A stretch of DNA of 64,000 bases, from the NCBI RefSeq assembly GCF_006716785.1, contig NZ_VFPQ01000001.1, forward strand, positions 4,588,001-4,652,000. The letters are read 5' to 3'. Source of the stretch: Thermopolyspora flexuosa. GTDB taxonomy: Bacteria; Actinomycetota; Actinomycetes; Streptosporangiales; Streptosporangiaceae. The notes under the pieces are model-generated. The model ran no database searches. It worked only from the letters and a program-made list of their open reading frames with translations, and had not been told where the DNA came from. The translations under genes and the position numbers were made by a program. Shown here one piece after another: positions 16,567 to 29,948 of this stretch (the stretch's first letter is position 1; each line of letters starts with the position of its first letter).

Positions 16567-17760
16567 ATGAGCCTGGAGGGGGTCGAGCATGCGCTCAGGC
16601 GGCGGCGGGACGAGCGTGACCGGATCGCGGGTGATCTGCTCGACCTGGAGGCACACCACGGCCACCGGCTGCTCAGGGGCGCCGAGCTCGACGGGGAGAC
16701 GCACCGCCGGTGGGCCGAGGCCCGGGAACGCCTCGCCGCGCTGTGGGTGGTGTTCGACGCCTACCGGCGCGTCGTCGACGAGGCGGAACGGCTGCGCGCC
16801 GCGTCGCCGCGGCCCGGGCCGGAGACGCTCGCCGAGCTGACCGCGCTGCTCACCGGGCCCTCGGTGGTGCTCAAGCCCGAGGACGTGCCGGTGGAGCGGC
16901 GCTCGCTGGTGCGGATCACCGCCGAGCGCATCACCCTCGACGAGGCCGTCGCCCGCATGGACGCGGCCTACCGGGAGGTCGCCCGGACCGTGGCCGCGGC
17001 CGACGAGGCGTGGACCGCGCTGCTGCCGCGGCTCGACGAGGCCGAGGCGGCCCGGAACGCGGCCGAGCGGCTGCTCGCCGAGCTCGGCGGCGCCGACGGC
17101 GAGCTGGAACGGCTCGGCCGCGAGCTCGCCGCGCTGCGCGGCCGGGTACGCGGCGACCCGCTGTCCTTCGCCGCAGGCGGCCGGATCGACACCGGCCCGC
17201 TGGAGCGCCTCGCCGCCGCGCTCGCCGCCCGCCGGGACCACCTGGAGAAGGCCCTGCGCGTCCGGGACGGCTTCGCGGCACGGGCCGGCGAGCTGGCGGA
17301 CCGCGTCGCCGCGGTGCGCGCCGCGGAGCAGGAGGCCCGCGCGGCCCGCGACCGCGTCCTCGTCAGGATCACCGATCCGGTGCTGCCGCACCTGCCCGAC
17401 CAGGCCCCCGCGCTCGCCGGCCGGCTCGCCGGCCTCGCCGCGCTGCGCGACGGCGGCGACTGGATCGCGCTGGCCCGCGCCGCCGACGAGCTGGAGCGCG
17501 CCGCGGGCGACGCGCTGCGGCAGGCCCGGGAGGCGACCAAGGCCATCAACGAGCTGCTGGAACGGCGCGACGAGCTGCGCGGCCGGCTGGAGGCGTTCCG
17601 GGCGAAGGCGCTGCGCCAGGGCCTCGCCGAGCACCCCGAGCTGCTCCGGCTCTTCCGGCAGGCCCACGACCTGCTGTGGACGGCCCCCTGCGACCTTCGC
17701 CAGGCGACCCGCGCGGTCTCGGGCTACCAGCGGGCACTACGAGAGATCGGAGCGGACTGA
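16567..17760 (+). CDS. Large coiled-coil protein, first gene of the PknG-type operon
   Basis: A 397-residue soluble protein, almost entirely alpha-helical by composition and rich in Ala, Arg, Glu and Leu, with heptad-like repeats (for example RRRRDERDRIAGDLLDLE and ELLERRDELRGRLEAFRAK). No enzymatic motif, signal peptide or membrane segment is visible. I do not recognise a named family. Its stop codon overlaps the start of the PknG-like gene (TGATG), so the two are translationally coupled, and it may be a scaffold or phosphorylation substrate of that kinase. The ATG at 16567 (MSLEGVEHAL) is the first plausible start. Confidence 0.75.
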   Translation: MSLEGVEHALRRRRDERDRIAGDLLDLEAHHGHRLLRGAELDGETHRRWAEARERLAALWVVFDAYRRVVDEAERLRAASPRPGPETLAELTALLTGPSVVLKPEDVPVERRSLVRITAERITLDEAVARMDAAYREVARTVAAADEAWTALLPRLDEAEAARNAAERLLAELGGADGELERLGRELAALRGRVRGDPLSFAAGGRIDTGPLERLAAALAARRDHLEKALRVRDGFAARAGELADRVAAVRAAEQEARAARDRVLVRITDPVLPHLPDQAPALAGRLAGLAALRDGGDWIALARAADELERAAGDALRQAREATKAINELLERRDELRGRLEAFRAKALRQGLAEHPELLRLFRQAHDLLWTAPCDLRQATRAVSGYQRALREIGAD

Positions 17761-20207
17761 TGGACCAGTGCTCCTACCCCGGCTGCACCGGCACCGTGGT
17801 GGACGGCTACTGCGACACCTGCGGCATGGCGCCGCCCCGGCCGAGCCAGGCGTCCCAGCCGTCCGCGGGCGGCTCCCTCGGCGGCGCCCCCGCCCCGGCC
17901 GTTCAGTCCGCCCCGGCGGCCCCGGCCGCTCAATCCGCCCCGGCGGCTCCGGCCGCGCCCTTCCCGCCTCCGCCGCCGTCACCGCCCACCGGACCCGCGC
18001 CGTTCCCCTCGGTGCCGTCCACCCCGGCGGGGGCCGCGATGTTCCCGTCCGCCCCGTCCACGCCGGTCGGGTCGGCCCCGTTCCCCTCCGCGCCGTTCAC
18101 CGCGCCCGGCAGCCACCCCAGCGGCCGGGGGCGCGGCAGCTCGAGCACCCGGTCGCGGCGCGGCATGCTCGGCGCGGGCCTGGTCGAGGTGCCGCCGGTG
18201 CCGTACCGGGACCCCTCGCAGGTGGTGATGCGGAACCCGCAGGTGCCGGAGGAGAAGCGGTTCTGCAACAACCCGCAGTGCGGCAAGCCGGTCGGCCGCA
18301 CCCGGGGCGACCGGCCGGGCCGTACCGAGGGGTTCTGCCCGCACTGCGGCACCCGGTTCTCGTTCACCCCCAAGCTGCGCGAGGGCGAGCTGGTCGCCGG
18401 GCAGTACGAGGTGAAGGGCTGCCTGGCGCACGGCGGCCTCGGCTGGATCTACCTCGCCGCCGACCGCAACCTCGACGGCCGCTGGGTGGTGCTCAAGGGC
18501 CTGCTCGACACGATGGACGCCGAGGCGCTCGCCGCGGCCGAGGCCGAGCGCCGGTTCCTCATCGGCGTCGACCACCCGAACATCGTCAAGATCATCAACT
18601 TCGTGCAGCACCCCGACCCCGTGACGCGGTCGATGGTCGGCTACATCGTCATGGAGTACGTCGGCGGCGAGTCGCTGCAGGACATGCTGCGGCGGCGGCT
18701 GCGCGAGTCCGGCAACACCGAGGCGCTGCCGCTCACCCACGCCATCGCGTACGCGCTGGAGATCCTGCGGGCGTTCGCCTACCTGCACGACCGCGGCCTG
18801 CTCTACTGCGACCTCAAGCCCGCGAACGTCATCCAGGTCGAGGAGCAGCTCAAGCTGATCGACCTCGGCGCGGTCCGGCGCATCGACGACATGGACAGCG
18901 CGATCTACGGCACGATCGGCTACCAGGCGCCGGAGATCGCCACGGACGGGCCGTCGATCAGCTCCGACCTGTACACGGTCGGGCGCACGCTCGCCGTGCT
19001 GAGCTTCCCGTTCAGCCCGGCGACCCGGGACCAGGCCACGCCGCTGCCCCCGCCGGAGCAGGTGCCGGTGCTGCAGCGGTACGACTCGTTCCACCGGTTC
19101 CTGCTGCGCGCCACCCACCCGCGGCCGGAGCTGCGGTTCCAGGACGCCGCCGAGATGGCCGACCAGCTGCGCGGCGTGCTGCGCGAGGTGAAGGCCGACG
19201 AGGACGGCCGGCCGTACCCGGCGCTGTCCGGGCTGTTCGGCCCGGAGCGCACCGCGGCCGGGACCGCGCTCGCCCCGGAGGACTCCGGCAGCGTGTTCGC
19301 CACGCCCGCCCCGGGCGAGTTCGTGTCCGCGCTGCCGGTGCCGCTCGTCGACCCGGGCGACCCGGCGGCCTCGTTCCTCGCCGGGCTCACCGCGCGCAAC
19401 CCCGGCGAGCTGGCCGACGTGCTGCGGCAGGCGCCGGTGGTGTCGCCGGAGACCGACCTCGCGCTCGCCCGGGTGCTGATCGAGCAGGGCAACGGCGCGG
19501 AGGCGGACGCGCCGCTCACCCGGGTGGCGCAGGAGCGGCCCTGGGACTGGCGGCCCCACTGGTACCGCGGGGTGCTCGCGCTCGCCTCCGGCGACCCCGC
19601 GGAGGCGGTGCGGATCTTCGACGAGCTGTACGGCCGCATGCCCGGCGAGGAGGCGACCAAGCTCGCGCTGGCGTTCGCCCGCGAGCGGGCCGGGGACTTC
19701 GCCGGGGCGGCGCGGCTGTACGGGACGGTGTGGCGTACCGACACCTCGTACGTGAGCGCGGCGTTCGGGCTCGCCCGCACCCGGCTGGCGGGCGGCGACC
19801 CGGCCGGGGCCACCGGTGTCCTCGACCAGGTGCCGGTCGCCTCCACGCACCGGGTCGCGGCGCAGCTCGCCACGGTGGCGATCGCGGTGCGCGGCCAGGA
19901 CCCGGCCCGGCTCTCCGCGGACGCGCTGCTGCTCGCCGGGCACCGGCTGGAGCAGATCGGGCTCGATGCGATCCGGTTCAACCGGATGGCGGCCGAGGTG
20001 CTGCGGGCCGCGCTCGCCTGGCTCGGCAAGGGCGCGGCCACGTCGGTGAACGGCGCCACGCTGCTCGGCGCGCCGTTCACCGAGGTCGGCATCCGGCGCA
20101 GGCTGGAACAGACCTACCGGGCGCTGGCCCGGGCGTCACACGACCCGGACGAGCGGCACGAGCTGATCGACCGGGCGAACGCGGTACGGCCGAGGACGTG
20201 GATCTGA
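17760..20207 (+). CDS. pknG: PknG-like serine/threonine protein kinase
   Basis: An 815-residue soluble kinase with the PknG domain order. It has an N-terminal zinc-ribbon-like motif (CSYPGC, CDTCG), a Pro/Ala-rich linker, and a rubredoxin-like Cys cluster (CNNPQCGKP, CPHCGTRF, about residues 170-200). The kinase domain is at about 210-470, followed by a C-terminal TPR region to the end. The catalytic loop is YCDLKPANVI rather than HRD, and the DFG motif is DLG, both typical of PknG. Mycobacterial PknG phosphorylates the FHA protein GarA to control 2-oxoglutarate metabolism. Here an FHA protein, a PP2C phosphatase and GlnX/GlnH homologues follow in the same operon. The ATG overlaps the previous stop. 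Confidence 0.95.
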   Translation: MDQCSYPGCTGTVVDGYCDTCGMAPPRPSQASQPSAGGSLGGAPAPAVQSAPAAPAAQSAPAAPAAPFPPPPPSPPTGPAPFPSVPSTPAGAAMFPSAPSTPVGSAPFPSAPFTAPGSHPSGRGRGSSSTRSRRGMLGAGLVEVPPVPYRDPSQVVMRNPQVPEEKRFCNNPQCGKPVGRTRGDRPGRTEGFCPHCGTRFSFTPKLREGELVAGQYEVKGCLAHGGLGWIYLAADRNLDGRWVVLKGLLDTMDAEALAAAEAERRFLIGVDHPNIVKIINFVQHPDPVTRSMVGYIVMEYVGGESLQDMLRRRLRESGNTEALPLTHAIAYALEILRAFAYLHDRGLLYCDLKPANVIQVEEQLKLIDLGAVRRIDDMDSAIYGTIGYQAPEIATDGPSISSDLYTVGRTLAVLSFPFSPATRDQATPLPPPEQVPVLQRYDSFHRFLLRATHPRPELRFQDAAEMADQLRGVLREVKADEDGRPYPALSGLFGPERTAAGTALAPEDSGSVFATPAPGEFVSALPVPLVDPGDPAASFLAGLTARNPGELADVLRQAPVVSPETDLALARVLIEQGNGAEADAPLTRVAQERPWDWRPHWYRGVLALASGDPAEAVRIFDELYGRMPGEEATKLALAFARERAGDFAGAARLYGTVWRTDTSYVSAAFGLARTRLAGGDPAGATGVLDQVPVASTHRVAAQLATVAIAVRGQDPARLSADALLLAGHRLEQIGLDAIRFNRMAAEVLRAALAWLGKGAATSVNGATLLGAPFTEVGIRRRLEQTYRALARASHDPDERHELIDRANAVRPRTWI

Positions 20208-21214
20208 TGGCGGCGATCTGTCCGGTGTGCTCGCTGGAAGGGCTGCCCGGCGAGAGGTTCTGCGAGGAGTGCGGCACGCCCCTCGGCGCGACGCTGTGCG
20301 CCTCCTGCGGCGCGGGCGCGGTCGACGCCGACGGGTACTGCGGGCGGTGCGGCGTGCGGCAGCCCACCGGGCGGGACCACGCCGAGATCGAGCTGACCGC
20401 CGGGGCGGTCCGGGTGGCCGGGGTGAGCGACCGCGGCCTGCGGCACAGCCACAACGAGGACGCGATGGCCCTCACCGTCACCGCCGTGCCCGCCGGGCCG
20501 TACGCGGCGGTCCCGGCCGGTACGGGCGATCCGGTGGCGGGCCCGGCCGGGTGGCAGGGCGGCCGGGACGCGTTCCCTCCCCCCGCGGCGGGCGGTACGC
20601 CGGGCGGGGCCGGGCACGCGGTCGTCGGGGTGGTGTGCGACGGGGTGTCGACCTCGCCGCGGCCGGAGGAGGCGTCGCAGACCGCGGCCGACACCGCCGC
20701 GGCGGTGCTCGCCGAGCGGCTGGCGGCCGGGGCCGACGCGGTGGCGGCGACCTACCAGGCCGTGGCGGCGGCGGCCGGGGCGGTGGCCGGGCTCGCGGAC
20801 TCGCTGTTCGACGCCCCGGCCTGCACCCTGGTGTCGGCGGTGGTGGACCCCCGGCACGTGACGGTCGGCTGGGTGGGCGACAGCCGGGCCTACTGGCTGT
20901 CCGGGCCGGGCAGCGCGCTGCTCACCCAGGACGACGCCGGGCCGGGCCACGTGCTCACCGCGTGGCTCGGCGCGGACGCCGGCGAGGTCGTCCCGCACGT
21001 GCGCAGCTTCGCCCCCGAGGGTCCCGGGGTGGTGCTGGTCTGCTCGGACGGCCTGTGGAACTACTACCCCGACCCCCTGGCGCTCGCCCAGGCCGTGCCC
21101 GACGCCGCCGCCGACCCCCTGGCCGCGGCCCGGACCCTGGTCGAGCTGGCGCTCCAGGCGGGCGGGCGCGACAACATCACGGTGCTGGTGATCCCGTTCA
21201 CAGGAAGGCGGTGA
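20207..21214 (+). CDS. PP2C-family Ser/Thr phosphatase with N-terminal zinc ribbons
   Basis: A 335-residue phosphatase. Residues 1-60 hold Cys pairs of double zinc-ribbon type (CPVC, CEECG, CASCG, CGRCG). The PP2C core shows HSHNEDA (about 82), VCDGVS (about 144), VGDSRAYW (about 224), CSDGLW (about 279) and GRDNITVLV (about 320), which supply the metal-binding Asp residues. Its ATG overlaps the kinase stop (TGATG), so kinase and phosphatase are made together and probably oppose each other on the same substrates. It has no membrane segment. Confidence 0.94.
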   Translation: MAAICPVCSLEGLPGERFCEECGTPLGATLCASCGAGAVDADGYCGRCGVRQPTGRDHAEIELTAGAVRVAGVSDRGLRHSHNEDAMALTVTAVPAGPYAAVPAGTGDPVAGPAGWQGGRDAFPPPAAGGTPGGAGHAVVGVVCDGVSTSPRPEEASQTAADTAAAVLAERLAAGADAVAATYQAVAAAAGAVAGLADSLFDAPACTLVSAVVDPRHVTVGWVGDSRAYWLSGPGSALLTQDDAGPGHVLTAWLGADAGEVVPHVRSFAPEGPGVVLVCSDGLWNYYPDPLALAQAVPDAAADPLAAARTLVELALQAGGRDNITVLVIPFTGRR

Positions 21215-21304
21215 CATGAGCGGGCGACCCCACCCGCGGCGTCTCGGCCGGCCCGGCCCGGTACGGCCCGGCCGCCCGCTCGTGGCGACCGAGAAGGAGG
21301 CGGC

Positions 21305-22597
21305 ATGACCGAGCAGGCCCAGTTCACGATCCGCGTCGACCAGAACAAGTACCTCCCGGTGGGCGGCTCGGAGGTGCACGCGATCGTGACCGTGGAGGCG
21401 ACCGGCCCGCTGGAAACGGTCGCGCAGCACGCCCAGGCCGCCGAGGTGATCATCATCGACACCTCGACCTCGATGGCGACCGAGCGGATCGGCGAGGCCC
21501 GCAAGGCCGCGATGGCCGCGATCGACACGCTCCGCGACGGCGTGCACTTCGCGATCATCGCGGGCACGACCAAGGCCACGATGGTCTACCCGAGCCGCAA
21601 GGAGATGGCGACGATGAACGCCGAGACGCGGCAGGCCGCCAAGAACGCGGTGAGCGGGCTCATCGCGGACGGCGGCACCGCGATCGGTACCTGGCTCCGC
21701 CTCGCCGCCGACCTGTTCGACCCGTACCAGGGCGCGGTCCGGCACGCCATCCTGCTCACCGACGGGCACAACCAGCACGAGAGCGCCGCCCAGCTCGACG
21801 CCGCGCTCGCCTACTGCCAGGGCAAGTTCGTCTGCGACTGCCGCGGGGTCGGCACCGGGTGGGAGGTCGCCGAGCTGCGCAAGATCGCCTCCACGCTGCT
21901 CGGCACGGTGCAGGACATCCCGGACGCCAAGGACCTGGAGGCGGACTTCCGGGCGATGGCGCAGCAGGCGATGGGCAAGGCCGTCGCCGACGTGGCGCTG
22001 CGCATCTGGACCCCGCAGACCGCCAAGATCAGGTTCGTGAAGCAGGTCTCGCCGACGCTCGAGGACCTCACCGGCCGCCGCGTCGACTCCGGCCCGCAGT
22101 CCGGCGACTACCCCACCGGCGCGTGGGGCCGCGAGGTGCGCGAGTACCACGTGTGCATCGAGGTCACCCCGGGCGGCATCGGCCAGGAGATGCGGGCCGG
22201 CTGGGTGAAGCTGGTGCAGCCCGACACCGGCATGCAGCTCGCCGCGGGCAACATCCTCGCCACGTGGACCGACGACCCGGCGCAGTCCACCCGGATCAAC
22301 CCCCGGGTCGCCCACTACACCGGCCAGGCCGAGCTGGCGAGCCTCATCCAGGAGGGCCTGCAGGCGCACCGGGAGCACGACTTCGCCACCGCCACCGCGC
22401 GGCTCGGCCGGGCCCGGCGGCTCGCCGAGGAGTCCGGCAACGAGGCCACGGCGAAGCTGCTCGACCGGGTGCTCGACTACGACCGGGCCACCGGCACCGT
22501 ACGGCTCAAGCCGCACATCGACCGGGCGTCGGAGATCGCGCTCGACGTCGGGTCGGTCCGCACCGTCCGCACCCGCAGAGACCCCGACCAGGGTTGA
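21305..22597 (+). CDS. VWA-domain protein of the PknG-type operon
   Basis: A 430-residue cytoplasmic protein. A von Willebrand A domain at about residues 45-215 carries the MIDAS motif DTSTSM and ILLTDGHN, so it should bind a divalent metal and a partner. The C-terminal half is beta-rich, ending in a helical hairpin with TPR-like character (IQEGLQAHREHDFATATARL). GAGAAGGAGG stands before the ATG. The 90-bp gap after the phosphatase is the largest early gap in the operon. VWA/FHA/PP2C combinations are typical of phospho-dependent complex assembly; its exact role is unknown. Confidence 0.9.
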   Translation: MTEQAQFTIRVDQNKYLPVGGSEVHAIVTVEATGPLETVAQHAQAAEVIIIDTSTSMATERIGEARKAAMAAIDTLRDGVHFAIIAGTTKATMVYPSRKEMATMNAETRQAAKNAVSGLIADGGTAIGTWLRLAADLFDPYQGAVRHAILLTDGHNQHESAAQLDAALAYCQGKFVCDCRGVGTGWEVAELRKIASTLLGTVQDIPDAKDLEADFRAMAQQAMGKAVADVALRIWTPQTAKIRFVKQVSPTLEDLTGRRVDSGPQSGDYPTGAWGREVREYHVCIEVTPGGIGQEMRAGWVKLVQPDTGMQLAAGNILATWTDDPAQSTRINPRVAHYTGQAELASLIQEGLQAHREHDFATATARLGRARRLAEESGNEATAKLLDRVLDYDRATGTVRLKPHIDRASEIALDVGSVRTVRTRRDPDQG

Positions 22598-22610
22598 GTA
22601 AGGAGTTCGC

Positions 22611-23648
22611 ATGCCCATCTGCCCCTCGGGCCACGACTCGGGCTCGGCCGACTACTGCGACGTGTGCGGCCTCGCGATCACCGGCGGCCAGGCGCCCGCC
22701 ACCGTGGCGGGCCCGGCGCACTCGGCGGCCGTCGCCGGGGCGCCCCCGGCCGCCGCCGCGCCCTCGCCCGCGTCGGGGCCCGCCGTACCGCAGGGCGCGA
22801 GCGGCCAGGAGGTGTGCCCCGAGCCCGGCTGCGGCACGCCGCGCGCCGGCCGGTTCTGCGAGGTGTGCGGCTACGACTTCGCCACCGGCACGCCGGGCTT
22901 CGGCCCGGTCAACACCGACTTCGGGCCGCCCCCGACGAGCTCCCCGCCCGGCGGGTACGGCCCGCACACCGGCGGCTACCCACCCCCCGGCTACGGCCCG
23001 CCCCCGGGCGCGCCGTACCCGCCGTCCGGATACGGCCCGCCCCCGGGCCACGCCCCCTACCCCGGCGCCCCCACCCCTCCGGGACCCGGCACGGCCGCCC
23101 CAGCCCCCCACGGGTACGGCACGGCCGCCCACCCCGGCTACGGCCATCCGAGCGGGCAGCCGATCGGCCCCCACGGCGCCCCGCCCCCCGGCCCCGGCCC
23201 GGCCACCGGCATGCCGCCGGGCGCACCTCCGGGCGCGCCGTACACCGGCTGGCACGTCGTGGTCGCGGCCGACCGGCAGTACTTCGACTCGGTCATCGCC
23301 CAGGGCGGCCCGGACGCGGCGAAGATCGTCTTCCCGCCGTACTGCCCCGAACGGGTCATCCCGCTCGTCGGCGGCCAGGTGCGGATCGGGCGGCGCAGCC
23401 GGTCCCGCGGGCTCCACCCCGAGATCGACCTGAGCGGGCCGCCGGAGGACCCCGGCGTGTCCCACCTGCACGCGATCCTCGTGGCGCAGCCCGACGGCTC
23501 CTGGGCGCTGGTCGACCCCGGCTCGGCGAACGGAACAAAGATCAACGATGCACCCGACCCCATCGCCACGAACGTCCCGGTTCCGCTATCCGACGGCGAC
23601 CGCATCTACGTGGGCGCCTGGACCGTCATCGTGCTGCGCAAGGGGTGA
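22611..23648 (+). CDS. Zinc-ribbon/FHA-domain protein
   Basis: A 345-residue protein. Two Cys-rich ribbons (CPSGHDSGSADYCDVCG; CPEPGCGTPRAGRFCEVCG) occupy the first 90 residues. A Pro/Gly/Tyr-rich low-complexity linker follows (about 100-205), then a C-terminal FHA domain with GQVRIGRRSRSRG, the phosphothreonine-loop SHLHAIL and the GSANGTKIND turn. FHA domains bind phosphothreonine, so it is the likely reader or substrate of the operon's kinase, in the position GarA holds in mycobacteria. No membrane segment. The ATG follows AAGGAG. Confidence 0.93.
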   Translation: MPICPSGHDSGSADYCDVCGLAITGGQAPATVAGPAHSAAVAGAPPAAAAPSPASGPAVPQGASGQEVCPEPGCGTPRAGRFCEVCGYDFATGTPGFGPVNTDFGPPPTSSPPGGYGPHTGGYPPPGYGPPPGAPYPPSGYGPPPGHAPYPGAPTPPGPGTAAPAPHGYGTAAHPGYGHPSGQPIGPHGAPPPGPGPATGMPPGAPPGAPYTGWHVVVAADRQYFDSVIAQGGPDAAKIVFPPYCPERVIPLVGGQVRIGRRSRSRGLHPEIDLSGPPEDPGVSHLHAILVAQPDGSWALVDPGSANGTKINDAPDPIATNVPVPLSDGDRIYVGAWTVIVLRKG

Positions 23649-23678
23649 GCGGAGCGTGCCGACGGTGGAGGAGTCGCC

Positions 23679-25169
23679 ATGACGATGCCGCTTCCGAGCC
23701 CGGCGCAGACGGCGCAGCCGAACGCGCCCGCCGCGCCCGCGCCGCCCGCGGCCCCGCCCGCGCCCGCCACCTCGGCCACGCCGCCCGCCCGCGGCCTCCT
23801 GCCGCGGCTGCCCCGGCTGCCGCGCCGGCTGCGGCTGCGCACCGTGCCCGCCCGCATCCGCGCGTGGACGGCGCTGACGGTCGTCGCCGTGCTGGCACTG
23901 TTCGGCGTCACCTGGACGGCGATCGACGACGCCACCGAGGGCCTGCGCGTGATCGGGCGGACCGACGGGCCGCAGGTGGTGGCGACCGGCGACCTGTACT
24001 ACGCGCTCAGCAACATGGACACCCAGGTCGCCAACATCCTGCTCCTCGGCAGGAACCAGATCGGCGGCGGCCGGGAGGAGGCGCTCCGGCGCTACGAGGA
24101 GAGCCGCAACGAGGCCGGGCGGGCCCTGCTCCAGGCCGCCGACCTCGCCGACGACGCCGCCGAGCGGCGCACCGTGCGGGAGCTGCTCAACGGGCTGAGC
24201 GAGTACGAGCGGCTCGCCGCCGAGGCGATGCTGCTCAGCAACCGGGAGTACGTCCTCGGGGACGCGCCGGACTCGGCGGTCGTCCGCTACCGCGCGGCCA
24301 CCAAGCTCATGCGGCTCAGCCTGCTGCCCAAGGCGTACAACCTCACGCTGGAGAGCGGGTCGAACGTGCGCCGCACGTACGAGGAGCAGCACTCGGCGGT
24401 GCGCAACGGCCGCCTCGCCGTGGTCGTCCTCGGGGTGGTGACCCTCGGTCTCCTCGTCGGCCTGCAGGTCTACCTCGCCCACCGGTTCCGGCGCATCCTC
24501 AACCCGGCGCTGCTCGCCGCCACCGTGGCGCTCACCGTGCTCGTCGGCCTCGCCATGGGCCTGCTGGAACGGGCGGCCGAGGACATGCGCGTCGCCAAGG
24601 AGAAGGGATTCAACTCGATGCTCGCGCTGTCGCGGGCGCGGGCGATCAGCAACAGCATGCACGGCGACCAGAGCCGCTACCTGCTCGACCGCCAGGAGGC
24701 GGACACCTACGCGCAGGTGTACCTCGACAAGGCGCAGTCGGTGCTGTACACCCCCGCGGGCAACCTCAACACCTACTACCAGGGGCTGAGCAAGGCGGCC
24801 CGCGAGTACCCGGGCAAGGCGGACTTCCTCGGCTTCTTCGGCGCCGAGGCGAAGATCGCCGACGACAAGGACGTACGCGACGCCCTCGCCGAGACGATCA
24901 AGCGGTACGACGGCTTCCAGCAGCAGGACCGCCAGCTCCGCGCGTCCGGCCGGGTCGAGCACCTGATGAACGACGTGGCCGAGCGCTTCCGGGAGTACGA
25001 CGACGCGCTGGTCCAACTCACCAGGATCCACCGCCGCACCTTCGACGCGGCGATCGCGGACGGCTACGCCGCCGTCAACGGCTGGAACTACGCGCTCCCC
25101 GGCACGATCGCCGCCGTCGTGGCGCTGATCTTCGTCGGGGTACGGCCCCGCCTCGTGGAATACCGCTGA
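23679..25169 (+). CDS. glnX: GlnX-like membrane sensor protein
   Basis: A 496-residue membrane protein. A Pro/Ala-rich N-tail is followed by a first membrane helix at about 64-84 and an extracellular helical region of about 160 residues. Two closely spaced helices lie at about 245-295, then a second extracellular helical region and a final helix near 473-490. This is the layout of mycobacterial GlnX, which relays the signal of the amino-acid-binding protein GlnH to PknG. Context strongly supports this: GlnH-like lipoprotein follows 20 bp downstream and the PknG-like gene is upstream. The gene symbol is by context and architecture. Confidence 0.82.
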   Translation: MTMPLPSPAQTAQPNAPAAPAPPAAPPAPATSATPPARGLLPRLPRLPRRLRLRTVPARIRAWTALTVVAVLALFGVTWTAIDDATEGLRVIGRTDGPQVVATGDLYYALSNMDTQVANILLLGRNQIGGGREEALRRYEESRNEAGRALLQAADLADDAAERRTVRELLNGLSEYERLAAEAMLLSNREYVLGDAPDSAVVRYRAATKLMRLSLLPKAYNLTLESGSNVRRTYEEQHSAVRNGRLAVVVLGVVTLGLLVGLQVYLAHRFRRILNPALLAATVALTVLVGLAMGLLERAAEDMRVAKEKGFNSMLALSRARAISNSMHGDQSRYLLDRQEADTYAQVYLDKAQSVLYTPAGNLNTYYQGLSKAAREYPGKADFLGFFGAEAKIADDKDVRDALAETIKRYDGFQQQDRQLRASGRVEHLMNDVAERFREYDDALVQLTRIHRRTFDAAIADGYAAVNGWNYALPGTIAAVVALIFVGVRPRLVEYR

Positions 25170-25188
25170 CGACGAACGGGAGATTGCG

Positions 25189-26034
25189 ATGCGAGCAAGG
25201 ATCGCCCTCGCCGGGCTGGCCGTACTGGCCCTGACGGCGGCGGGGTGCGGTGCGGGCGGCGACGAGTCCTCGATCGTCGGCAAGGAGTCCCTGGTGATCG
25301 GGGTCAAGCCCGACCAGCCCGGCCTCGGGCTGAAGAAGCGCGACGGCGTCTACGAGGGCTTCGACGTGGACGTGGCCAAGGCGATCGTCGGCCACCTGAA
25401 GGGCGCCGGCCTTCTCCCGGAGGACGTCACCGTGCGGTTCATGGACGCCCCGTCGTCGGATCGGGAGAAGCTGCTCCAGTCCCGCAAGGTGGACTTCATC
25501 GTCGCCTCCTACTCGATCACGCCGGAGCGCAAGACCAAGGTCGCCTTCGCCGGGCCGTACTACGTCGCCCACCAGGACATCCTGGTGCGGCAGAACCAGA
25601 CCGGGATCCGGAACGTCCGCGACCTGGCCGGCCGGCGGCTGTGCGCGGTGGACGGCTCGAACTCCGACGACCGGGTGCAGAAGGAACGGGGAATCCCGAT
25701 CACACCCGTGCAGTCGGCCTCCTACAGCGAGTGCATCGAGAAGCTGAAGAACAACGAGGTCGACGCGGTCTCCACCGACGACCTCATCCTCGCCGGCTTC
25801 GCCGCCCAACCGGACAACCGGAACCTGCGGGTGGTCAACGCCCGCTTCACCGACGAGCGGTACGGCGTCGGCATCCACAAGACCGACATCGAGGGCTGCG
25901 AGGCCATCAACAAGGCGATCACCACGCTCTACCAGAACGGCACCATCCCCAAGCTCCTGAACAAGTGGTTCGGCGGCACCGGCCTCAACCTGCAGGACGC
26001 CACCAGCGTCCCCCAGTTCGAAGGCTGCGACTGA
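25189..26034 (+). CDS. glnH: GlnH-like amino-acid-binding lipoprotein
   Basis: A 281-residue family 3 solute-binding lipoprotein with signal peptide and lipobox AAGC (Cys near residue 20). The mature domain shows LVIGVKPDQPGLG, the EGFDVDVAKAIVG motif, VDFIVASYSITPERK and the C-terminal IPKLLNKWFG. In mycobacteria GlnH binds Asp, Glu or Asn outside the membrane. There are no transporter permease or ATPase genes nearby, which fits a sensory rather than an uptake role. It is the last gene of the seven-gene operon. Confidence 0.92.
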   Translation: MRARIALAGLAVLALTAAGCGAGGDESSIVGKESLVIGVKPDQPGLGLKKRDGVYEGFDVDVAKAIVGHLKGAGLLPEDVTVRFMDAPSSDREKLLQSRKVDFIVASYSITPERKTKVAFAGPYYVAHQDILVRQNQTGIRNVRDLAGRRLCAVDGSNSDDRVQKERGIPITPVQSASYSECIEKLKNNEVDAVSTDDLILAGFAAQPDNRNLRVVNARFTDERYGVGIHKTDIEGCEAINKAITTLYQNGTIPKLLNKWFGGTGLNLQDATSVPQFEGCD

Positions 26035-26277
26035 CCCCAGGCGGCTGGGCGACCTGACCAGCGGGTCGCGCAGCCGCCCGCCGTACCTCAAGCACTGTCC
26101 CTGGCCTCCCACTCGCCTGACCGGCCTGTTTTCCCGGTACGGCCCGCTCGCCGTGAGCGAAGAACGGTCTTCGCGATTCGCGAGCGGAACACCCGGTCGA
26201 GTGAGTATCGTGAACATGCCTTTACCCAGCGTTACCATCCGGTTGGGCTGCGTCACGGCAGCGAACGGGAGGCACCG

Positions 26278-27570
26278 GTGCGCTTCATCTCCGAGCACGT
26301 CGACCCGGCACGATCCCCCTGGCACCTGCTCGGCGCCGAACTCCGCCACCAGCGCGAGCAGGTCCACCGCCTCAGCCTGCGCGAGGTCGCCCGCCAGGTC
26401 TACTGCGACGACGGCGACCTGTCCAAATGGGAACGCGCCATCACCCGCCCCCACCCCGACAACATCCGGCGACTCGACGATTTCTACGGCGCCGGAGGCC
26501 GAATTATGGCCCTGCACGCACTTGCCGTAGAGCTGGAACGCCTGCGTACCCTGGTCAAAGAAGGCACGGCCGGAAAGGAGGCCGCCACGGAACGCCGCCA
26601 GGTATTACGGCTCGCCGCGGTAGGCGCCGGAATCGGCGCGCTCGGCATCCCTGGCGAAACCCTCCGCCAGGCGATCGCCGCCTCCTACGCGGGAGATTTC
26701 CGCACCATCGCCGCCTGGCATAGAGCCTGCGCCGATCACCTGTACGCGCTGCACACCCGCCCACCCGCACAGGTCGCCGCCGATCTCCTTATCGACCTTT
26801 TCATCGTGAAGCGGCAAAGAGAGGTCTCGTCACCGGCCGAGACGGTCGAGCTGGAGGGAGTGAGTGCTACCCTCGCCGGCCTGCAGGCGAACGTGCTGTC
26901 CCGTCTGGGCGACCACGGCGCCGCCCTGCGCTGGTGGCACACCGCACGCCAGGCCGCCGACGCCTCCGGTGACCGCGACCTGCAGGTTCTTGTCCGCGCC
27001 GAGGAAGCTGTCCACGGCGTGTACGGCCAACGCGACCCGCAATCCGTGCTCGACATCATCGACGAGGCCCAACGGCTACACGGCCCCGCCAAACCTTCCG
27101 TCGCCCTGCTGTCCACCCAGGCCAAAGCGCTGTCGGCGCTCGGAAAGCACGACCAGGCCCAGAAAACCCTCGAGTCCCTTCTCGACGCCGCCGACAAAGG
27201 CGTAACTCCCGACCCGCTCGGTTTCTGGTCACCCAGCAAGATCTATTTCGCCCAAAGCTGGGTCTATTCGGCCATGGGAGACGAAGCAAAAGCGGCCAAG
27301 ATCCGCGATCAGGTACTATCCCATACCCGCGGCTATCAATATCGCGCCAACGTTCACCTCCACGAGGCTCTGTCCATGGTGGTGAACGGCGGAACAACCG
27401 AAGGAGTACGCCGCGCAGCCGAAGTCATCGACTCGATCAAACCCGCCTACCGCACCCAACACATTCGCCACACTGCCCAAATGGTCCTGGACGCCGTCCC
27501 CCTGGAGCACCAGGACCGCCCGGGCGTCGCCGAACTCCGCGAGCTCCTTCACTACCAGCCCGCCACGTAG
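26278..27570 (+). CDS. XRE-family regulator with TPR domain (copy 1)
   Basis: A 430-residue protein. The N-terminal helix-turn-helix (about residues 15-75: LLGAELRHQREQVHRLSLREVARQVY, CDDGDLSKWERAI) is followed by a basic hydrophobic linker and a C-terminal region of TPR-like helices (about 130-425). This layout is widespread in streptomycetes and relatives, where such proteins act as developmental or quorum-type regulators; the ligand is unknown. The GTG start is supported by GGGAGG. A palindrome TCGCGA-T-TCGCGA (26171-26183) about 95 bp upstream may be an operator. Composition is less GC-rich than its neighbours. Confidence 0.88.
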   Translation: MRFISEHVDPARSPWHLLGAELRHQREQVHRLSLREVARQVYCDDGDLSKWERAITRPHPDNIRRLDDFYGAGGRIMALHALAVELERLRTLVKEGTAGKEAATERRQVLRLAAVGAGIGALGIPGETLRQAIAASYAGDFRTIAAWHRACADHLYALHTRPPAQVAADLLIDLFIVKRQREVSSPAETVELEGVSATLAGLQANVLSRLGDHGAALRWWHTARQAADASGDRDLQVLVRAEEAVHGVYGQRDPQSVLDIIDEAQRLHGPAKPSVALLSTQAKALSALGKHDQAQKTLESLLDAADKGVTPDPLGFWSPSKIYFAQSWVYSAMGDEAKAAKIRDQVLSHTRGYQYRANVHLHEALSMVVNGGTTEGVRRAAEVIDSIKPAYRTQHIRHTAQMVLDAVPLEHQDRPGVAELRELLHYQPAT

Positions 27571-27851
27571 TCCTAGCAGAAAGACCTGAGGAGCCACCGG
27601 CCGCTCATCACCATGAAAGGGCTTTCTCAAGGGAGAACCGCATGGGCTAGGCGGGGGCATGCTGCCGTACTCAAATCACGGCACCTTGCAGGAGACCGAC
27701 GGTTCTCAGCATCGTCTTTGCTCGCCGAGAGCGAAGAACGGTCTTAGCGATTCGCGAGCGGAACACCCGGTCGAGTGAGTATCGTGAACACGCCTTTACT
27801 CAGCGTTACCATCCGGTTGGGCTGCGTCACGGCAGCGAACGGGAGGCACCG

Positions 27852-29162
27852 GTGCGCTTCATCTCCGAGCACGTCGACCCGGCACGATCCCCCTGGCACC
27901 TGCTCGGCGCCGAACTCCGCCACCAGCGCGAGCAGGTCCACCGCCTCAGCCTGCGCGAGGTCGCCCGCCAGGTCTACTGCGACGACGGCGACCTGTCCAA
28001 ATGGGAACGCGCCATCACCCGCCCCCACCCCGACAACATCCGGCGACTCGACGATTTCTACGGCGCCGGAGGCCGAATTATGGCCCTGCACGCACTTGCC
28101 GTAGAGCTGGAACGCCTGCGTACCCTGGTCAAAGAAGGCACGGCCGGAAAGGAGGCCGCCACGGAACGCCGCCAGGTATTACGGCTCGCCGCGGTAGGCG
28201 CCGGAATCGGCGCACTCGGCATCCCTGGCGAAACCCTCCGCCAGGGCATCGCCATCTCCTACGCGAATGATTTTCGCACCATCGCCGAGTGGACGAACGC
28301 CTGTACTGATCATTTGTACGCGTTGCACAACCATCCACCCGCACAGGTCGCCGCCAACCTTCTTATCGATCTGTTCACCGTCAAGCGGCAGAAGGAGGCA
28401 TCCTCACCGGCCGAGACGGTCGAACTGGACGCGGTGACCGCCGCGCTCGCCGGCATGCAGGCCAACCTCCTCACCCGCCTGGGCGACCACGGCGCGGCAC
28501 TGCGCTGGTGGCACACGGCCCGCCAGGCCGCCGACGCGTCCGGCAACCTCGAGATCCGCGTCCTGGTCCGCGCCGAGCAAGCCCGCCACGGCGTGTACGG
28601 CCAGCGCGACCCGCAAACCGTGCTCAACATCATCGAGGACGCCCAACGGCTCCTAGGTCCTTCGCGGCCCTCCGTCGATCTGCTGACCACAAAGGCCAAG
28701 GCGTTGGCGGTGTTGGGCAGGCACGACGAGGCCCAGAAGACTTTGAACACCGTTCTCGACGTCGCGGACAAGGGCGTCACACCAGACCCTCTCGGCTTCT
28801 GGTCAGAGGCCAAGCTCTACTTCGCCCACAGCTGGGTCTACGCGCTGATGGGCGAAGAAGCGAAAGCGGATGAGGCTCGCGATCACGTGCGCACCCACGC
28901 CCGCGGCTACCAATACCGCACAAACGTCCAACTCCACGAGGCTCTCTCAACGGTCGTAAACGGTGGGACAGTCGAAGGAGTGCGCCGCGCGGCCGAAATC
29001 ATCGATGCCGTCAAACCCGCTTACCGCACACAACACATTCGCCACACCGGCCAAATGGTTTTGAACGCCGTACCGCTGACGCACCACGACCACCCGGCCG
29101 TCGCCGAACTCCGCGAGCTTCTTCATTACCAGCCCCCACGTAGTCCTAACAGAAAGACCTGA
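27852..29162 (+). CDS. XRE-family regulator with TPR domain (copy 2)
   Basis: A 436-residue paralogue of the gene at 26278. The DNA-binding half is essentially identical. The TPR half has diverged, so the two probably recognise the same operators but different signals. A one-base loss at the 3' end (CAGCCCCCACG against CAGCCCGCCACG in copy 1) shifts the frame and extends the C-terminus by a few residues (ending PPRSPNRKT). The upstream palindrome has one mutated arm (TAGCGA-T-TCGCGA, 27745-27757). It ends 143 bp before the CRISPR array. Confidence 0.88.
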   Translation: MRFISEHVDPARSPWHLLGAELRHQREQVHRLSLREVARQVYCDDGDLSKWERAITRPHPDNIRRLDDFYGAGGRIMALHALAVELERLRTLVKEGTAGKEAATERRQVLRLAAVGAGIGALGIPGETLRQGIAISYANDFRTIAEWTNACTDHLYALHNHPPAQVAANLLIDLFTVKRQKEASSPAETVELDAVTAALAGMQANLLTRLGDHGAALRWWHTARQAADASGNLEIRVLVRAEQARHGVYGQRDPQTVLNIIEDAQRLLGPSRPSVDLLTTKAKALAVLGRHDEAQKTLNTVLDVADKGVTPDPLGFWSEAKLYFAHSWVYALMGEEAKADEARDHVRTHARGYQYRTNVQLHEALSTVVNGGTVEGVRRAAEIIDAVKPAYRTQHIRHTGQMVLNAVPLTHHDHPAVAELRELLHYQPPRSPNRKT

Positions 29163-29304: not shown

Positions 29305-29603
29305 GGTCGAGCCCCTCTCAAGGGCGATGAGGACGTGGCGCAGCCTGCCCGGGTCGATGATCTCGCCGTGTTGCGCCCCCCTCTCAGGGGCAATGAGGAC
29401 TCGGGGCCTGCAAGGCCGGGGTCGGGGTGCCGGACATGTTGCGACCCCTCTCAGGGGTGATGAGGACCGTTTTCGCCCTCTGACCCATTCACGACCACCC
29501 ACAACTGTTGCGCCCCCTCTCAGGGGCGATGAGGACGCGAGGACACCTGGTGCCTGGACAAGGAGACCGCCGCGTTGCGACCCCTCTCAGGGGCGATGAG
29601 GAC
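29305..29603 (-). CRISPR. Small orphan CRISPR array (five repeats, four spacers)
   Basis: Repeats of 30 bp sit at 29305-29334 (degenerate), 29370-29400 (one extra C), 29438-29467, 29507-29536 and 29574-29603. Spacers are 35, 37, 39 and 37 bp. The repeat begins GTTGCG, has the palindromic core CCCCTCTCAGGGG and ends GATGAGGAC. Its reverse complement ends GGGGTCGCAAC, resembling a 3' repeat end that gives an 8-nt crRNA handle, so transcription is probably leftward. The degenerate leftmost repeat then marks the trailer end and the leader would lie right of 29603. No cas genes are in the window, so the subtype is unassigned. Confidence 0.92.
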
Positions 29604-29948
29604 CCGACGGTAAAGTCGCAGGTGGAGGGTCTGTTGATCAAGGCCGAGAAGGGCCGTTTTGCAGTGAACCTCCGGTAGTGCAGCAGCCCCGGGAGGTTCG
29701 CTGCAAGTTACGGTCAGTCAGAATCATGGGTGGCTAGAGGATGCTGCCCGGATGGGTTGGGCGACTCACCATCGTAGTGGCCAGGGTCATGCCGGAGGCC
29801 GAGGCCAGCCCAACCATCTGGACACCTTCGCGTGGTCCAGCACCGCGAAGCGGATAGACGGGTGGCAAGACCGCGCGGCCACCGGACCCTACCGAAAATT
29901 CGCGCCCACGGCCGGTACATCACCAGCCAGCCCGGCTGCCTGCTTGTG
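29604..29948. other. Putative CRISPR leader side and intergenic hairpin
   Basis: No gene is visible. If the array is transcribed leftward, the leader is here. A 13-bp inverted repeat with one mismatch (29661-29673, GCAGTGAACCTCC; 29692-29704, GGAGGTTCGCTGC) could be a terminator or a leader structure. The remaining sequence lacks coding bias. Confidence 0.45.

Follow-up and report, generated by a model that had tools for sequence, protein, structure and literature searches.

The closest described relative of the locus analysed here is the GlnH-GlnX-PknG-GarA/OdhI cascade of Mycobacterium and Corynebacterium (PMC6069109, PMC9769921, PMC8546545), and most work on PknG comes from organisms with a three-gene operon. 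Two further systems are relevant. In Sulfolobus, ArnB is bound by ArnA, which carries a zinc finger and an FHA domain. The C-terminal region of ArnB is phosphorylated by ArnC, a kinase with a TPR-like stretch, and dephosphorylated by PP2A, and the switch follows nutrient supply (PMC6509490, PMC12852372). The TerY-P triad (PMC11090510), in turn, combines a VWA protein, a PP2C phosphatase and a Ser/Thr kinase with a Zn ribbon, a set that it has in common with our locus.

The locus lies in a 64,000-nucleotide stretch of the Thermopolyspora flexuosa genome (hereafter the window) and is a novel variant on the known PknG-GlnX-GlnH system. It shares with the mycobacterial and corynebacterial cascade the domain order of PknG, the GlnX family, an SBP lipoprotein, operon linkage and a GarA encoded elsewhere, but differs by four extra genes (CC, PP2C, VWA and Zn-FHA) and by a Zn ribbon at the N-terminus of PknG. 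Compared with TerY-P, the kinase type and the position of the ribbon are different, and the operon adds an SBP, GlnX, FHA and CC.

Layout and gene parts of the operon

We found seven co-directional open reading frames on the + strand between positions 16567 and 26034 of the window sequence:

16567-17760, +, CC, a coiled-coil/helical rod protein, 397 aa (matches in 71 fetched loci)
17760-20207, +, PknG Ser/Thr kinase, 815 aa (Pfam domains, PDB match)
17769-17822, +, PknG N-terminal Zn ribbon, followed by an S/T/P-rich linker
18159-18377, +, PknG rubredoxin
18405-19016, +, PknG kinase domain
19218-20198, +, PknG TPR
20207-21214, +, PP2C phosphatase with N-terminal double Zn ribbon, 335 aa (PP2C_2 and DZR)
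21305-22597, +, VWA protein with ArnB/Sec23-24-like fold, 430 aa (VWA_3 and VWA_3_C; orthologue of PDB 4FX5)
22553-22570, +, VWA tail S417-V-R-T420-V-R422, predicted phosphorylated FHA-docking motif (invariant residues)
22611-23648, +, FHA protein with two Zn ribbons, a long Pro/Gly-rich linker and a C-terminal FHA domain, 345 aa
23679-25169, +, GlnX membrane relay, 496 aa (NF058618)
25137-25166, +, GlnX C-terminal tail GxxxRLxEYR, predicted PknG docking motif (column conservation)
25189-26034, +, GlnH-like lipoprotein, SBP family 3, 281 aa (SBP_bac_3)

Domain, family and PDB matches back the calls of PknG, GlnX, GlnH, phosphatase, VWA and FHA proteins made in the preliminary description, and its coiled-coil call holds as well. 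The same description spoke of an operon with TGATG overlaps; the seven genes do lie on the same strand, but such overlaps occur at only two of the six junctions (CC/PknG and PknG/PP2C), the remaining four intergenic gaps measuring, in order, 90, 13, 30 and 19 nt. A scan for promoters and terminators gave no signal above chance. The gap between PP2C and VWA also holds a 30-codon open reading frame (21216-21308) whose stop overlaps the VWA start, and which is probably there by chance.

PknG matches PknG_TPR with 311 bits, PknG_rubred with 101 bits and Pkinase with 98 bits, and it matches the PDB structure of PknG, 2pzi, with an E-value of 4e-169. The catalytic K, D, K, N and the D of DLG are invariant in an alignment of 97 orthologues, and together with the order rubredoxin-kinase-PknG_TPR they place the protein in the PknG-GlnX-GlnH system. 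Likewise, the metal-binding Asp residues of PP2C are kept in 79-81 of 81 aligned orthologues.

GlnX belongs to the pknG-linked NCBIfam GlnX family NF058618 (268 bits, cut-off 250), and scores far under the narrower equivalog of the kinase G-activating GlnX, NF041460 (50 bits against a cut-off of 780). Its C-terminal tail, GxxxRLxEYR, stands out for its conservation: over 81 rows G, R and E reach 99%, Y 94% and R 93%, compared with a median column identity of 42%. In C. glutamicum the C-terminal approximately 8 residues of GlnX were placed in the cytoplasm, and the mode of interaction between GlnX and PknG was called 'still elusive' in 2022 (PMC9769921). We propose the tail as a candidate docking site for PknG, and the invariant motif is thus a candidate answer to the question of how GlnX contacts the kinase.

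The lipoprotein GlnH (SBP_bac_3, 102 bits) has a lipobox-like AAGC and keeps the equivalents of R147, S164, R169 and D250 of M. tuberculosis GlnH, with T162 changed to S, W232 to Y and K161 to A. Its score against an ancestral Gln/Arg binder exceeds that against the M. tuberculosis protein. From its binding residues, an acidic, Asp/Glu-like amino acid is a plausible ligand. CC, lastly, matched no Pfam or NCBIfam family above cut-off. Its AF2 model is almost entirely helical (mean pLDDT 96), residues G43, W60, W149 and D197-P198 are invariant, and a C-terminal PCDL motif is nearly so; a fold search against the PDB returned no match at E<0.001, the resemblance to EzrA being weak.

Conservation and direction of change

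We compared the operon with 80 loci named from one scan of public genomes and 20 from further genomes. The long version is carried by most of the actinobacterial relatives sampled. As for the gene order, whose conservation the preliminary description had proposed as a check, that of the window is identical in 32 fetched loci, and in another 21 all seven genes are there but GlnX-GlnH precedes CC-PknG-PP2C-VWA-FHA, the latter arrangement being found in Micromonosporaceae, Actinocrinis and a genus taken to be Streptomyces. The seven-gene set is thus present in 53 fetched loci from several actinobacterial families, and the sharing of order by 32 loci and of the rearranged gene set by 21 makes the operon more than a chance assembly. 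This co-conservation also supports the earlier suggestion that the extra parts may form an integrated assembly. An Acidimicrobiales genome (L087) has the CC-PknG-PP2C-VWA-FHA half, and a locus from another class than that of the window (L132) has the same half with GlnX-GlnH adjoining on the opposite strand. Taken together with the two placements of GlnX-GlnH, these loci make the operon seem to be built from two movable halves, one for sensing and one for kinase and output.

Among 61 genomes of the order to which the window belongs, PknG is present in 42 and the VWA family in 34, always together with PknG (34 of 34 genomes; Fisher p 7e-10, with relatedness ignored), and the distance between VWA and the TPR segment of PknG is 27-1681 bp in all 37 matches compared from this order. 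Variants of the set also occur: second copies are PP2C-less in L157, L158 and L161, while L154, L155 and L157 hold VWA copies without FHA. In L162, L165, L166, L168 and L169, VWA is lost or eroded and FHA, PP2C and PknG are kept, FHA outlasting a loss of VWA in L165, L166 and L169. These VWA-eroded relatives are natural tests of the role of VWA.

We found a GlnX-GlnH-PknG triad in Actinokineospora, in two Kutzneria and in a group taken to be Mycobacteriaceae. The N-terminal Zn ribbon of PknG is present in 98 of 103 loci with the extra genes against 1 of 13 without them, a contrast that represents one or two lineages. L167 has a PknG-GlnX-GlnH remnant in which the zinc ribbon is retained, and this gene order together with the retained ribbon indicates loss from the long form. 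When a PknG tree is rooted on distant paralogues, the kinases of the triads fall within those of long operons, with deep support of 81-85. The AU test, on the other hand, rejected neither a triad-first arrangement (p 0.295) nor one that puts every triad into a single clade (p 0.359). The triad is probably a reduced form of the longer operon; since the opposite direction survives the AU test, we go no further than probable. What has been studied in mycobacteria and Corynebacterium may be a cut-down, three-gene version. Should the seven-gene form prove both the commoner and the older, then work on the antibiotic-producing actinobacteria has missed a PknG output additional to GarA.

The VWA-FHA pair and the ArnA-ArnB comparison

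The VWA protein is a full-length orthologue, at 52% identity, of PDB 4FX5 (Catenulispora acidiphila caci_2163), a structure for which we know of no functional study. Next after 4FX5 in the fold search came ArnB as part of the ArnAB complex (E 3e-20, TM 0.57-0.65), and the ArnB paralogue vWA2 was also found (E 2e-16); the sequence profile matched ArnB too, weakly (E 2e-4). The predicted structure (pLDDT 88, with residues 420-430 at pLDDT<50) has the features of an ArnB-like VWA protein, namely a VWA domain inserted in a beta-sandwich, C-terminal helices and an intact MIDAS. The MIDAS residues are invariant in 77 of 77 aligned sequences. All 76 of 76 sequences agree at S417, T420 and R422 in the tail, whose DST(K/R)T core is preserved in distant paralogues. 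We predict this S-x-x-T-x-R tail, with T420 as the candidate residue, to be the phosphorylated target of an FHA domain.

Such a domain is encoded by the adjoining gene, as in an ArnA-ArnB module: the FHA domain of the operon protein scores 41 bits, its phosphothreonine-binding R, S, N and T are invariant in 71 aligned sequences, and Zn ribbons stand in the place of a zinc finger. Indeed, there is a counterpart in the operon for each part of ArnA-ArnB-ArnC-PP2A (Zn-FHA, VWA, kinase and phosphatase). The differences are that the phosphatase is PP2C rather than PP2A, that the FHA protein has two Zn ribbons while ArnA has one RanBP2-type finger, and that the candidate docking Thr sits in a short tail of the VWA protein, as opposed to the helix bundle in ArnB; moreover, the operon is bacterial, with a membrane sensor and without an archaellum, whereas the Arn module is archaeal. 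In predicted structure and in architecture, the proposed ArnAB-like output is a strong parallel. The authors of the ArnAB work had already pointed out the likeness of 4FX5 to vWA2, without a link to PknG, and they hold that most ArnB-like proteins do not take part in multi-phosphorylation processes (PMC12852372, PMC6509490). Our literature search found no paper tying PknG operons to ArnAB.

Proposed signalling scheme and its alternatives

We favour, with a probability of roughly 0.55, an extended PknG-GlnX-GlnH nutrient-sensing system that has a GarA branch and an ArnAB-like VWA-FHA branch. GlnH would bind an extracellular amino acid, perhaps an Asp/Glu-like one judging from its binding residues, and GlnX would relay the signal across the membrane, its GxxxRLxEYR tail presumably docking the TPR domain of PknG. 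The kinase would then have two outlets. One would be GarA, encoded elsewhere and, by comparison with mycobacteria and C. glutamicum, controlling the OdhA complex; in the other, once the S-x-x-T-x-R tail of VWA had been phosphorylated, the Zn-ribbon FHA protein would hold on to it, a step modelled on the way Sulfolobus ArnA holds phosphorylated ArnB. PP2C would reset the phosphorylation marks and CC may serve as a scaffold. The VWA-FHA pair thus offers a concrete, testable mechanism for a second output, taken from the solved archaeal complex. A more far-reaching version, which is possible but which we put forward tentatively, is that the operon contains a complete actinobacterial counterpart of ArnA-ArnB, wired to an amino-acid sensor via PknG and reset by PP2C, and that the mycobacterial three-gene operon would be a leftover after loss of the output module.

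The proposal that the operon packs the whole circuit did not hold, since GarA is a separate gene: it lies at G000:C1:2714795-2715184 (L147), scores 187.5 bits to the OdhI model, whose cut-off is 200, and has a DTTS motif, and OdhA is likewise encoded elsewhere in the genome, as a fusion in a separate 1266-aa frame. The L147 protein also carries an N-terminal zinc ribbon, which we take to be missing from mycobacterial GarA, and in two relatives (L150, L151) ESTST replaces ETTS. The operon FHA protein might be thought to stand in for GarA locally, as a PknG target that directly controls 2-oxoglutarate metabolism; within the FHA domain it is 29% identical to the separate GarA, and FHA proteins are known as PknG targets (PMC8546545). 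Nevertheless, it scores about 20 bits to the OdhI model, lacks an ETTS-type acceptor motif and shares the genome with the separate GarA, and these three points rule out that it is GarA itself. As 60 of 61 genomes in the window's order moreover have GarA, whether PknG is present or absent, we regard a substitute role as very improbable. The presence of both GarA and the OdhA fusion can also be read in a different way, namely that the circuit is an ordinary PknG-GlnX-GlnH-GarA one, in which PP2C, VWA, FHA and CC, transcribed together with the rest as accessories, do no more than adjust the phosphorylation of GarA and make up no separate switch. In mycobacteria and C. glutamicum the triad functions by itself (PMC6069109, PMC9769921), and it stands alone in Actinokineospora and L167, as this reading would have it. 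We still find it rather unlikely, given that the active residues of VWA and FHA are fully conserved and linked to PknG in distant families, and that VWA persists in PP2C-less and FHA-less copies.

A quite improbable origin, in our judgement, is a stress or defence triad of the TerY-P type that recruited PknG and GlnX-GlnH to serve as its kinase and its sensor, respectively. The operon does hold the same three catalytic classes with Zn ribbons that define TerY-P (PMC11090510), the theme of PP2C, kinase and VWA recurs in actinobacterial GAP1-N2 systems (PMC7159879), and a trypsin-like protease is found in the paralogous operon described below. Against this, TerY-P combines a kinase bearing a C-terminal Zn ribbon with a TerY-type VWA and PP2C, a combination that is not found here: the ribbon of PknG is N-terminal and its C-terminus is PknG_TPR. 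The operon is also broadly conserved and has no nuclease among its genes. PADLOC gave generic kinase matches for PknG and none for the other six proteins, and we rejected a TerY-P or defence assignment.

The extended PknG-GlnX-GlnH scheme has a relative in three Streptomyces-like genomes, where we found a paralogous PknG-type operon (L130:6781-14297, and also L129 and L131). It encodes a trypsin-like protease fused to a CC-type C-terminus, a PknG-type kinase (Zn ribbon-rubredoxin-kinase-PknG_TPR), VWA with a Zn ribbon and a GlnX-like relay, as well as a sugar-type SBP_bac_1 lipoprotein in L130, the one of the three that was read for it; PP2C and FHA were not found in these operons. The relay ends in RPR(L/I)xEYR, and its kinship with GlnX rests mainly on position and this tail motif, because the match to the GlnX profile is weak (76% probability). 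In its gene content, the paralogous operon suggests a reusable chassis with exchangeable sensor and output.

Directly downstream of the operon in the window, two tandem similar genes have in common a 300-nt segment with 99% identity (26146-26445 and 27720-28019). By its sequence the pair is a recent tandem duplication, and it probably encodes helix-turn-helix regulators. Further on, at 29312-29610, five CCCCTCTCAGGGGCGATGAGGACC-like repeat copies follow one another with a spacing of 66-69 nt, resembling a short CRISPR array.
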